Shown one piece after another: positions 21,143-45,556 of a stretch of DNA of 64,000 nt. Each line of letters opens with the position of its first letter. Within the stretch, counting starts at the first letter, position 1. A program made the translations under genes and the position numbers. Below the pieces are notes generated by a model. That model was not told where the DNA came from, did not search any database, and was given only the letters and a program-made list of their open reading frames with translations. The DNA comes from Vulcanisaeta moutnovskia 768-28 (GTDB lineage Archaea; Thermoproteota; Thermoprotei; Thermoproteales; Thermocladiaceae), in contig NC_015151.1 of the NCBI RefSeq assembly GCF_000190315.1, positions 1,612,001 to 1,676,000 of the forward strand, in the 5' to 3' direction.

Positions 21143-21242
21143 TATCGACGGTTTATGGAGGATTAAGTGAAATTAAACCTTATGCCCTGGGTAATTATGC
21201 TGAGAGTAATACTAATAAGATTTGGCGTTTACGGCGTGTTTA

Positions 21243-40962: not shown

Positions 40963-41064
40963 TTATGAATAATAAATAAATATTTCACCTCTAAAAATCA
41001 TGATACTAATAATTATTGATTTATTAGGATAAGGTATTTATAGGGGTCTAATTATTAGGTCGTG

Positions 41065-42120
41065 ATGTCTATAGTGAAATTTGAGCCAGAAACCAGGAGG
41101 GTTCAACTAACTGGTGGCGCAACCTTAATAGTTTCACTACCGAAGGAGTGGACTAGGCAAGTTGATCTTAAACCTGGTGATGAGGTTCTGGTAATACCGC
41201 AGCCAGACCTCTCATTGCTTGTTGTGCCCAAGAAGATGGTTAAGGCGCCATTACTCGAATCATCAATAAACGTGACCCAGGACCTATCAAACATAGATCA
41301 TCTCGAGAGGATATTACTTGCTCATTACCTATCTGGTTATGACATATTTAGGCTTAATTTTGACATAGCGACATTAAACCTGAAGAAGCAGGTTAAGGAC
41401 ATTGTCCGGAGGAAGCTAACCGGAGTTGAGATTATTGAGGAGGGTAGGAATACGTTAGTTATTCAAAACCTCGTTAATGTACCTGATATAAACATTAGGG
41501 ACATATTAGTGAAGCTTGGTAAGACGGTTGTCGGCATGATAGATGACTTAAGAACGCCAATGGAGAACGGTGATAAGTCAATAGCCATGGACATTATTGA
41601 GAGGGATAATGAGGTCGATAAGTTCTACTGGCTCCTAAATAGGCAGTTGAAGAGGGTCTTGGTGAGTAAGCATGCCCTAAGCCTATCTGGTATTCAGGAC
41701 CCAAGGAGTATCATTGAGTATGCAATAATTAATAAGTCGCTCGAGAGGGCTGCTGATCATGCCGTTAAGATCGCGCGGGAGGTCGTAAATCTAGGCGATA
41801 AATACGTACTTATAATGCCGCAGGAGCTTAGGCAAAGATTCAGTGAGCTCCTTAGTAAGGACTCCATGATAATGAGTAATGTTGGTAAGGCAATGACGGA
41901 GAAAATAGATGCAAGGGAGGTTAATTACATAATTGATATTGTTAAGTATGAAATACGGACGACAGTAGATTCACTGGATTCCTCGCTATCGAATTATAGC
42001 CTAACCACACAGGCGGCCGCGTCGGCTAGGTTAATACTGGATAGTATCTATAGGATAGCTGAATACGCATCAGACGTTGGGGAGGCATTACTTAACCTCG
42101 CAATTGAGCAATTTGGATAA
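41065..42120 (+). CDS. AbrB-PhoU fusion regulator (phosphate uptake regulator family)
   Basis: The N-terminal AbrB-type domain (RRVQLTGGATLIVSLPKEWTRQVDLKPGDEVLVI) is fused to PhoU-like helical bundles (residues about 135-351) with repeated helices such as MDIIERDNEVDKFYWLLNRQLKR and KSLERAADHAVKIARE. This archaeal architecture is annotated as PhoU-like and may control phosphate genes; no Pst transporter is adjacent. ATG 41065 is chosen with a GTATTTATAGG box 26 nt upstream. Confidence 0.9.
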   Translation: MSIVKFEPETRRVQLTGGATLIVSLPKEWTRQVDLKPGDEVLVIPQPDLSLLVVPKKMVKAPLLESSINVTQDLSNIDHLERILLAHYLSGYDIFRLNFDIATLNLKKQVKDIVRRKLTGVEIIEEGRNTLVIQNLVNVPDINIRDILVKLGKTVVGMIDDLRTPMENGDKSIAMDIIERDNEVDKFYWLLNRQLKRVLVSKHALSLSGIQDPRSIIEYAIINKSLERAADHAVKIAREVVNLGDKYVLIMPQELRQRFSELLSKDSMIMSNVGKAMTEKIDAREVNYIIDIVKYEIRTTVDSLDSSLSNYSLTTQAAASARLILDSIYRIAEYASDVGEALLNLAIEQFG

Positions 42121-42134
42121 TACCTTGATTAAAA

Positions 42135-42731
42135 TTAGACCTTATTAAAAACCATTGTTATTATGTCCTCAAAAAAGTAATGAGTTGCCTTGATCATTAC
42201 CAGTTTATAGCCACATCTTCCTAAGTAATCAATTGATTCCTCCCAATTGGACAGTGAGGATTGCGTTAGTATGAACATGGAGGCTTTATACTGACATATT
42301 TGCTGTATTAATTGCTTAATCACATCATTACCGTGAGATCCACCGAAGATCCTCCAATCCTCATTCCAATTACCTGGTAAGTAGGGAGGATTACTAACAA
42401 CTATGTCGAGGCAAAATCGTGTCCTTATTGCATCTAGTAAATTCATCGTTATCACATCAGCGTAGTGATAAAGACCATTATTAACTAGGTTTATTCTGGT
42501 GTTCATTGATGCATTGTAATCATGATCCGCAGCCAAAACCCATGCAGTGCCTCCCTTACTAACTATTTCATTCAACGCCGTTAATGCTAATATACCCGTC
42601 CCAGATCCTACATCGATTATGCGTAAGTACCCATCATTGGCGTGATTGCTCATAACCCAACGGAGTAGCTCAGCAGTTTGCCACGAATCCTCGGCAGGGG
42701 GATAGACATTACTTAATACTATGATTTTCAT
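42135..42731 (-). CDS. HemK/PrmC-like class I methyltransferase
   Basis: VYPPAEDSWQTAELL is the N-terminal signature of the archaeal HemK/Mtq2 group, DVGSGTGILALTAL motif I, and VVSNPPYLP the catalytic NPPY for glutamine N5-methylation of a release factor. The 199-residue length is typical for archaeal members lacking the N-terminal helical domain. The start is ATG 42731, or GTG 42737 overlapping the upstream stop. It follows the regulator gene in one operon. Confidence 0.9.
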   Translation of the reverse strand: MKIIVLSNVYPPAEDSWQTAELLRWVMSNHANDGYLRIIDVGSGTGILALTALNEIVSKGGTAWVLAADHDYNASMNTRINLVNNGLYHYADVITMNLLDAIRTRFCLDIVVSNPPYLPGNWNEDWRIFGGSHGNDVIKQLIQQICQYKASMFILTQSSLSNWEESIDYLGRCGYKLVMIKATHYFFEDIITMVFNKV

Positions 42732-42733
42732 GA

Positions 42734-43552
42734 TCACTTGAACAATACTATGTATATTAATACTGAGGGTATTAATAGGAATAATGTTTCGAAGAGTAGT
42801 GAGTATTCCATGGGTTTTCCTGAAATCATTGATAGTACCGTGGCTAGCATTATTAGGCTAATGAGTGGTAATAATGCCTTAAGCAATGCGTCAATTATTG
42901 AGAGTGGGTAGGGTGGTACCCACGGTGTTATTAACGCCATTATAGTTGGGTATAGCGATATCGGTATCAATGATGTTAAAACACCACTTAATAACTTAAG
43001 ATCCACAATCTCACCGCCGAGTAAGTACCTATAAATAAATAATGAAATACCTAGGTATGCGAGTATTGAAATTATTGTCACATCTATCGGCATAGAGTAC
43101 ATACTCTCCACAAAAACCAGGAGTAATAATTCATAATTCTGTGTGAATGCCGTAACTAAACCAAGCACTATAATTACCATTGAGTATATGAATAATGCAT
43201 TCGGGCCGAGCCTATACATGTTTATTGTTAATGGTCTCATCAATAATATGTCAGTTAACTCCTCGGTTTTTGCACTTGGGTTCTTAATATCAGAGTTGGG
43301 GCTTAATAATTCATCAATCCTCTCAATGAGTGTTCTTCCCTTACTCGTTATCTTTACGTAGGGTCCATCCCTTATAACAAAGCCATTAGCCCTTAGTATC
43401 TCAATATCGTAGTAAATGGATGATGTGGGTGCATTTAGTACTTTTCTTAGGTCTGATATCCTCATAGTACCCTGACCAATCAATAATTTCAGTATTTGTA
43501 TTCTCCTTGGCTTAAGTACAATGTTGTCAATATCATCAATATCCCTACTCAT
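42734..43552 (-). CDS. Winged-helix regulator anchored by transmembrane segments
   Basis: Residues about 12-85 form an ArsR-like winged helix (RRIQILKLLIGQGTMRISDLRKVLNAPTSSIYYDIEILRANGFV). After a linker, four to five hydrophobic segments fill residues 118-272, so DNA binding occurs at the membrane. The signal it senses is unknown. ATG 43552 is leaderless and shares a central TATA box with the divergent gene at 43606, which makes that gene a natural target. Confidence 0.82.
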   Translation of the reverse strand: MSRDIDDIDNIVLKPRRIQILKLLIGQGTMRISDLRKVLNAPTSSIYYDIEILRANGFVIRDGPYVKITSKGRTLIERIDELLSPNSDIKNPSAKTEELTDILLMRPLTINMYRLGPNALFIYSMVIIVLGLVTAFTQNYELLLLVFVESMYSMPIDVTIISILAYLGISLFIYRYLLGGEIVDLKLLSGVLTSLIPISLYPTIMALITPWVPPYPLSIIDALLKALLPLISLIMLATVLSMISGKPMEYSLLFETLFLLIPSVLIYIVLFK

Positions 43553-43575
43553 TACAGCAATACTTATAGAGTAAG

Positions 43576-43583
43576 TATAAAAG
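43576..43583. promoter_or_regulatory. Single TATA box serving two divergent leaderless genes
   Basis: TATAAAAG (CTTTTATA on the other strand) is centred at 43579.5. It lies 27.5 nt from the ATG of the membrane regulator (43552) and 26.5 nt from the GTG of the rightward gene (43606). The spacing is identical to the box at 624-631. Confidence 0.7.
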
Positions 43584-43605
43584 AGTTCTTTTCGGAGAGA
43601 TTTCT

Positions 43606-44508
43606 GTGGTTAGCTTTGATGATTTAAAGGTGTCATTAAGTACGTACATAATGAGGAACAAGAGAGTTACTTATCAGGATCTATTGAGGTGGTCATCGAG
43701 CAATAAGGTCGGTAACGCCCTACTATACCTAGTCATTAGAGAGTTAGTTCGTGAGAGGAAGTTCAAGGTATCCGGGGAGTACGTAATTGGAACAATAAGA
43801 ATCGGCAATAATGATGTTAAGTTATCAATACCAATGTACATAGAGGTACCTGGTGAGACCGTTAAGCCAACAACATCCACTAAACGCCAAACAAGGCAAA
43901 GACATGCCAGGAGTTCAAGCATCCTAGAGGCGTTTAGTAAGGAAAAGGCTCCGGAGGAAAAGCAGGTTACAACGGAGGGTGGTGAGGAAAAAGGAGTTGT
44001 AGGAAGATCTTCTAAGGAGGTTGAACGAGAGGAAACACCACAAAAAACTGGATTAAGTGAGGCTAGAGAGCAGAAGGAGGTTCAGGGCAATACTGAGAAT
44101 GAGACAATGGAGACTAAGGTTAAGGAGGTAGATAATACCGTGGTGAGTATCGAGGAGACGAGAATTCCAACTGATTATTCAACAATTTCAATGGAGGATT
44201 TTATGACAATGCTTAGGAGGATTATTGACGAGGAGTTACCCCAGAATAGAGAGGAGGGTTATAAAATAGCCATGGCGATTTTGACGTACTTATCAAAATA
44301 CTGGAGCGTTGGTGAGTTAAGACTAAAGCTTGACATTGCTAAGCAGTTTGGCGGTGTTAATGAGAATATAATGAGGATTGAGGATGGGGTTTTAAGGGCA
44401 CTTAGGAAGCTGGGTATTATAGAGGTTGTAGAGCCTGGTGTTATCAATAGAATGAGGGAATTACCCAAGGATTTTGCTAAGGTTAGACTTGATTCGTTAT
44501 TTACCTAA
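43606..44508 (+). CDS. Unknown protein with two winged-helix-like ends and a charged disordered centre
   Basis: The N-terminal 75 residues (SLSTYIMRNKRVTYQDLLRW..., LVIRELVRERKFKVSG) and C-terminal 95 residues (AILTYLSKYWSVGELRLKLD..., VLRALRKLGIIEVV) both look like small helical DNA- or protein-binding modules. The region between, about 90-190, is Glu/Lys/Thr-rich and probably disordered. No family is recognised. The start GTG 43606 shares its TATA box with a membrane-bound regulator. Its stop abuts the convergent S25e gene. Confidence 0.7.
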   Translation: MVSFDDLKVSLSTYIMRNKRVTYQDLLRWSSSNKVGNALLYLVIRELVRERKFKVSGEYVIGTIRIGNNDVKLSIPMYIEVPGETVKPTTSTKRQTRQRHARSSSILEAFSKEKAPEEKQVTTEGGEEKGVVGRSSKEVEREETPQKTGLSEAREQKEVQGNTENETMETKVKEVDNTVVSIEETRIPTDYSTISMEDFMTMLRRIIDEELPQNREEGYKIAMAILTYLSKYWSVGELRLKLDIAKQFGGVNENIMRIEDGVLRALRKLGIIEVVEPGVINRMRELPKDFAKVRLDSLFT

Positions 44509-44850
44509 CTACGCAGCTATTTGCTTAAGTCTGTCAGGTGTTGTGTAAACCTCGGTTCTATGACCCTTAGAAACAAGTACCAAAGCTCCCTTATTTGCCA
44601 GAGTCCTCAGTATTTGATAGGCAACGCTTATTTTTGTATTAAACCTAGTCGCTACCAAGTACGGCGTAACGTACTCCCACTTCACGACCTCCTTCTCAAC
44701 ATCATTAAGTAGTTTAGGATCAACAAGTGAAGCCCTAACTGTTGGCCTCTCCTCAGCGGCTTTCTTACCCTTCGCAGTTGGTTTTGCTGGGGCTTGCTTT
44801 TCCTGTCTCTTTGCTAATTGTGATAATGTTGGTTTTTTCTTTCCACCCAT
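44509..44850 (-). CDS. rps25e: 30S ribosomal protein S25e
   Basis: The N-terminal Lys/Ala/Pro-rich tail (GGKKKPTLSQLAKRQEKQ) leads to the winged-helix core KEVVKWEYVTPYLVATRFNTKISVAYQILRTLANKGALVLVSKGHRTEVY, which matches S25e. The 113-residue length fits. ATG 44850 is used instead of a codon three residues upstream; a TTTATAAAGG box lies about 33 nt before it. Confidence 0.93.
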   Translation of the reverse strand: MGGKKKPTLSQLAKRQEKQAPAKPTAKGKKAAEERPTVRASLVDPKLLNDVEKEVVKWEYVTPYLVATRFNTKISVAYQILRTLANKGALVLVSKGHRTEVYTTPDRLKQIAA

Positions 44851-44974: not shown

Positions 44975-45556
44975 ATGGCAAATCCCACTTATCGTATTGA
45001 GAATATTGTCGCCACGGTAAACCTCGGCATTGACCTGGACCTAGATAAACTCGCAGAAAGGCTTCCCGCAGCTGAGTACAATCCTGAGCAATTCCCCGGC
45101 TTGATACTAAGGTTACAGAGACCGAAGATATCGGCATTAATCTTTAGGACGGGTAAGATGGTGTGTACGGGTGCTAAGAGCGAGAATGAGCTTAAGAGGG
45201 CTGTTAAGGAATTAGTGAGGTTGCTTAATGAGCATGGCGCCGACGTACCACTCACTCCGGAGATTCAGGTACAGAACATTGTGGCTTCCGGTAACCTGCA
45301 TGCCGAGGTTGATATTGAGAAATCAGCCCTAATGCTTGAGAATTCAATGTACGAACCTGAGCAATTCCCCGGCCTCATTTATAGGATGGATGATCCGAAG
45401 GTTGTGCTACTAATATTTAGCTCAGGTAAGATAGTGTGTACGGGGGCCAAGAAGGAACAGCAGGTTAGGGATGCTGTCTTTAAGATTCATGACGTTCTTA
45501 GGGATATAGGGGCTTTGTATGAGGAGGAGGGTGGTAAGGAAGAAGAGGAGCTTTGA
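44975..45556 (+). CDS. tbp: TATA-box binding protein
   Basis: Two direct repeats of about 90 residues form the saddle: RIENIVATVNLGIDLDL...FPGLILRLQRPKISALIF...MVCTGAKSE and QVQNIVASGNLHAEVDI...FPGLIYRMDDPKVVLLIF...IVCTGAKKE. An acidic tail (EEEGGKEEEEL) follows, as in other crenarchaea. It heads an operon with an unknown Cys-containing protein and probably hjc. Confidence 0.97.
   Translation: MANPTYRIENIVATVNLGIDLDLDKLAERLPAAEYNPEQFPGLILRLQRPKISALIFRTGKMVCTGAKSENELKRAVKELVRLLNEHGADVPLTPEIQVQNIVASGNLHAEVDIEKSALMLENSMYEPEQFPGLIYRMDDPKVVLLIFSSGKIVCTGAKKEQQVRDAVFKIHDVLRDIGALYEEEGGKEEEEL

Follow-up and report, generated by a model that had tools for sequence, protein, structure and literature searches.

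A probable bidirectional promoter with a single TATA box between divergent genes for a membrane-anchored regulator and a PBP2-related protein in Vulcanisaeta moutnovskia

The window analyzed here, a 64,000-nt stretch of the Vulcanisaeta moutnovskia 768-28 chromosome (G000:C1:1612001-1676000), contains two divergent genes whose start codons are separated by only 54 nt, counted from the first base of the minus-strand ATG at 43552 to the first base of the plus-strand GTG at 43606 (Table 1). The leftward gene encodes a membrane-anchored regulator. Hydropathy indicates roughly five hydrophobic segments between residues 119 and 266, preceded by a winged helix-turn-helix (wHTH) domain at residues ~14–70. 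This domain gave a weak match to HTH_5 (0.00037) together with ArsR-type matches, and AlphaFold and Foldseek modeling yielded a MarR/ArsR-like winged helix. The N terminus of the protein therefore resembles that of ArsR/MarR winged-helix regulators with a membrane domain, while its C-terminal polytopic membrane domain matches no named family and reaches no curated one. A HemK2/Mtq2-like methyltransferase gene overlaps the regulator gene by 4 nt and is probably co-transcribed with it. The rightward gene encodes a protein modeled as a winged helix (residues 1–80), a disordered charged linker (~89–186) and a C-terminal winged helix; genes encoding ribosomal protein S25e and the TATA-binding protein (TBP) lie beyond it.

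Table 1. Genes and sequence elements at the divergent locus (window coordinates)
Feature	Position	Strand	Basis or remark
HemK2/Mtq2-like methyltransferase	42135..42737	-	Pfam MTS 5.8e-9; TIGR00537 4.2e-18, under curated cut-off
Membrane-anchored winged-helix regulator, 272 aa, ATG 43552, predicted leaderless	42734..43552	-	ORF, conserved start
58 bp identical between G000 and syntenic G015	43536..43593	.	Covers minus start, spacer, TATA and BRE(-)
Perfect inverted repeat ATACTTA-TAGAG-TAAGTAT (19 bp), candidate operator	43560..43578	.	Overlaps BRE(+) and TATA box
AGTAAG, candidate BRE of rightward gene	43570..43575	+	Promoter matrix, conservation
TATA box TATAAAAG (CTTTTATA on minus strand), common to both genes	43576..43583	.	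Sequence, conservation, promoter matrix
AGTTCT (minus strand AGAACT), candidate BRE of leftward gene	43584..43589	-	Promoter matrix; GTTC invariant in 11 sequences
300-aa two-domain protein, GTG start 43606	43606..44508	+	
Ribosomal protein S25e gene	44509-44850		
TBP gene	44975-45556		

Direct reading of the spacer bore out the initial annotation, which had placed the box TATAAAAG at 43576-43583 with 27.5 nt separating its center from the leftward ATG and 26.5 nt separating it from the rightward GTG. Both start codons appear sound: the ATG aligns at the same place in relatives, and the GTG is the sole in-frame start upstream of codon 6 when full-length Vulcanisaeta orthologues are considered. 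Across 322 promoters in 464 kb of the same genome (G000), TATA-like hexamers are most often centered at −25 to −29 relative to the start codon, as would be predicted for leaderless transcription. Both genes show this leaderless-type spacing (~26–27 nt before the start codon). The two offsets are thus ordinary leaderless values for this genome, and 54 nt is the distance that results when two leaderless promoters are placed on one box. As in archaeal BRE-TATA-BRE promoters, a single TATA box lies midway between the divergent starts at core-promoter distance. Of its two strongly conserved flanks, GTAAGT fits the learned BRE, and AGAACT on the minus strand shows a partial fit. Full promoter-matrix scores are moderate, at 4.4 and 5.7 for the two directions, or about the 90th–95th percentile of random windows.

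The box and both distances are kept among relatives. The nine genus members with both starts measured have start-to-start distances of 54 or 55 nt, G016 and G020 have the same spacer, G025 has 57 nt, and the distance from box to plus start is constantly 26.5 or 27.5 nt in orthologues. All 11 aligned genus members carry an unchanged core, AGTAAGTAT..AA..GTTC, whereas the plus-gene proteins of the genus share only 44–71% identity with the window protein. We interpret this core as BRE(+)/TATA/BRE(−), a motif described in Pyrococcus furiosus. The layout with a single fitting box is conserved in 11–12 genus members, and GTAAGT within the rightward BRE region is kept as far as Caldivirga-like genomes. 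Beyond the genus, the two genes are 59–64 nt apart in g3 relatives and 86–106 nt apart in the Caldivirga-like g2 genomes, where sequences judged by eye contain an apparent separate box for the minus gene. The divergent pair itself is present in f1, f2 (G001), g8 of f3 (G043, G044) and f9 (G056). This wide taxon range, along with the apparent separate g2 box, indicates that the one-box layout is limited to the genus and that the divergent arrangement is older. The idea that the spacer is exceptionally conserved between G000 and G015 was rejected: 45-nt upstream identity exceeds the median without being extreme, ranking 26 and 53 of 148.

Collectively, these data make it probable (roughly 80%) that the 54-nt spacer acts as one archaeal promoter for both directions, with a single TATA box starting the two genes. 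In the predicted mechanism, TBP would bind the sole box and TFB would dock on either side of it, at AGTAAG for the rightward gene or at AGAACT (minus strand) for the leftward gene. The orientation of TFB would then decide in which direction RNA polymerase is sent. The predicted start sites lie at, or 1–2 bases from, ATG 43552 and GTG 43606, so that the mRNAs of both genes would be leaderless. A single box can accommodate only one complex at a time, and competition between the two directions is therefore expected.

Bidirectional transcription from a shared TATA box is a known kind of promoter with precedent in Pyrococcus. A P. furiosus BRE-TATA-BRE promoter produced in vitro transcripts both ways, with transcription start sites (TSSs) 49 bp apart (PMC6640164). 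The Vulcanisaeta spacer resembles these promoters in having one TATA box, candidate BRE-like flanks and starts ~50 bp apart. The P. furiosus examples, which carry mapped TSSs and in vitro proof, mostly pair a gene with an antisense RNA. The Vulcanisaeta promoter, recognized from sequence, instead joins two protein genes, with start codons at the inferred TSSs and leaderless transcripts predicted both ways; a search for TSS maps of the genus found none. Symmetric prokaryotic promoters that drive divergent transcription have also been described (Warman et al. 2021 Nat Microbiol, as presented in PMC10268837 and PMC12825309). According to those accounts, a near-symmetric element likewise engages the transcription machinery in two orientations, although the bacterial case uses a common −10 element with TSSs 18 bp apart rather than a TATA box and ~54 nt. 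The Vulcanisaeta locus offers a natural, conserved and exactly spaced case of one TBP site between two coding genes, where predicted leaderless transcription would allow competition between TFB orientations to be cleanly measured.

The most direct challenge to a shared box comes from CTTATAGA, the other plus-strand box, which lies at 43563-43570 (−39.5 from the GTG) and in the plus orientation scores 6.1 in the promoter matrix, above TATAAAAG. Two separate, overlapping promoters could therefore be envisaged, with the leftward gene served by CTTTTATA and the rightward gene by CTTATAGA. The rightward mRNA would then carry a 12–13-nt leader bearing a GGAG-like ribosome site. A purine-rich GGAGAG does lie 7–12 nt before the GTG, and a purine-rich stretch precedes the GTG in several species; it could act as a Shine-Dalgarno sequence behind a short leader in some of them, which would count against leaderless transcription. 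However, CTTATAGA is absent in relatives L007 and L008, while TATAAAAG and the 26.5/27.5 spacing remain, so the plus gene there must use the shared box. Caldivirga-like relatives also keep GTAAGT plus an AT box before the rightward gene, and across the genome the −12 to −5 region of first genes is not enriched in G. We regard this two-promoter arrangement as quite unlikely.

A functionally one-way promoter, with a strong rightward start and leftward initiation that is mere noise from the symmetry of the box, would fit the better BRE match and deeper conservation of GTAAGT, as well as the finding that the bidirectional signals studied in P. furiosus mostly gave antisense RNA assumed to be non-functional (PMC6640164). 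Yet on the left a conserved gene begins exactly at leaderless distance, the 20 nt on that side are identical in most species, and no other box serves the leftward gene in Vulcanisaeta. These features make a one-way promoter very improbable.

The bidirectional promoter may also be regulated by the leftward product. The perfect 7-bp arms of the inverted repeat overlie the box and are kept in most genus members, and the divergent regulator/target layout recurs throughout the family and also in another family of the same order. As an addition to the shared-TATA reading and not a replacement for it, the regulator might bind ATACTTA-N5-TAAGTAT over BRE(+)/TATA and repress or steer both directions, its own gene included. 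Such autoregulation by a membrane winged-helix protein is possible, but we hold this switch to be doubtful: the left arm is lost, and the repeat thereby broken, in L007, L008 and L010, though regulators are kept there, and other placeable close matches to the repeat sit in coding DNA or behind a tRNA. A regulon of the repeat was rejected on the latter ground, as was a regulon of GTAAGTATAAAAG, whose exact motif is unique in the genome. A second exact copy of ATACTTA-N5-TAAGTAT was seen at G000:C1:456667-456685, intergenic and just behind an apparent tRNA 3′ end, where it may be a terminator or integration-site feature.

The initial annotation had taken the locus as one of two independent members of a compact bidirectional promoter class with a fixed 54-nt architecture. 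We therefore place the locus against a census of 254 divergent pairs, called with a home-made simple gene caller in 1.264 Mb of G000, which is a 55% sample, taken as stretches, of a single 2,298,983-bp contig. The proposed genome-wide count of pairs 52–56 nt apart gave nine in this sample versus ~4 expected from a smooth fit (p ~0.02). A 51–55-nt range, picked after seeing the data, held 10 versus 3.7 expected (p 0.005). When 400 kb from each of G015, G018 and G025 was added, 20 pairs fell at 51–55 nt versus 9.5 expected, a roughly twofold excess across four genomes that share orthologues and so are not independent. In 13 of these 20 pairs, the best box for both genes lay at −24 to −30.5 from the start, compared with 1.6 ± 1.3 of 20 (maximum 7) in 500 rounds of shuffled spacers. 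A class of compact shared-box pairs is thus real, modest in size and defined by a distance range. What did not survive is the fixed spacing, with distances spread over ~51–58 nt; 54 nt as a magic number was rejected, as orthologues have 54, 55 and 57 nt and neighboring distances are used too.

The purported second member of the class fared less well. Its elements (GTG 600, TTTTAAAT at 624-631 and GTG 654) do follow the same arithmetic as 43552/43606, but the distance is not conserved: candidate minus starts in relatives are separated from the plus start by 52 or 43, 72, 62 or 41, 68, and 67 nt, and the start at 600 was not chosen by our gene caller. The pair was rejected as a coincidence. In a chance model for the 17 divergent pairs of the window, with distances drawn from the sample with random jitter, two pairs had equal distances in about half of runs, and equal distances inside 45–62 nt in ~5%. 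Elsewhere, at G000:C1:1852191-1852244, a compact divergent pair is 53 nt apart in both G000 and G015 and its promoters are 96–98% identical, which makes it a good further example of a conserved promoter with a shared box.

The identity of the rightward protein carries a larger potential pay-off than the promoter. PBP2 has been described as indispensable for the activity of PolB1 in Sulfolobus acidocaldarius and as missing from Thermoproteales; both PBP1 and PBP2 are reported to be undetectable there, and an alternative to PBP2 has been supposed (PMC5418573, PMC7923795). The best solved-structure match to the C-terminal domain of the rightward protein was PBP2 of Saccharolobus PolB1 (SSO6202, PDB 5n35, PF22511; Foldseek E 0.03, prob 1.00, 34% identity, TMt 0.71). 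Winged helices are common, so this match is weak by itself. The domain, however, also shares the SVGE[IL] motif, and WSVG is present throughout the family alignment. No gene in the genome matches PF22511 better than the rightward gene, although its C-terminal domain scores 15.4 bits and does not reach the curated cut-off of 27; 12 of 19 such domains touch Pfam PBP2, with a best E of 0.0011, below the cut-off. Comparison of the PBP2 and C-domain profiles gave an hhalign E of 5.1e-5 (prob 67). Two-domain homologues from other families of the class clear the PF22511 cut-off, at 35–52 bits. A profile built from such two-domain ORFs detects the window protein at 115.7 bits, the match covering both domains, which places the C-terminal domain of the window protein in the same family. 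A sequence search of solved structures with rightward-protein profiles returned nothing convincing. Homology of the C-terminal winged helix to PBP2 is well supported.

The rightward gene thus looks like a candidate for the PolB1 subunit that Thermoproteales reportedly lack. It is not filed as PBP2, since PolB1 binding is predicted only and neither its size nor its curated score fits. PF22511-matching open frames in the best-scoring genomes are mostly 67–120 aa, and unlike small, stand-alone PBP2 the 300-aa window protein carries an additional winged helix at its N terminus, together with a charged linker. The window-family profile matches 78 of 81 genomes of the class, some by short N-domain matches; with a named candidate whose family occurs in nearly every genome of the class, the missing-PBP2 question becomes directly testable. 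A literature search of limited range found no paper naming the gene. It is conceivable, if unlikely, that Thermoproteales rebuilt PBP2 as a two-domain protein and tied it through the shared TATA box to a membrane regulator, such that a membrane signal would set the level of a replicative-polymerase subunit. In G016, G017, G019 and G020, the rightward gene is split by frame breaks at differing places (L009/L027, L011/L026, L012/L025 and L005/L028); these are lower-completeness genomes, and assembly errors rather than biology are the likely cause.

Two other blocks of the window are identical to G015. One, at 41007-41087 (81 bp), lies upstream of and extends into a MazE/PhoU-domain gene at 41062, and ranks, within 400 kb, among the longest conserved promoter blocks of non-RNA type. 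The other, at 21164-21226, is a 63-bp intergenic block with neither a called gene nor a tRNA.
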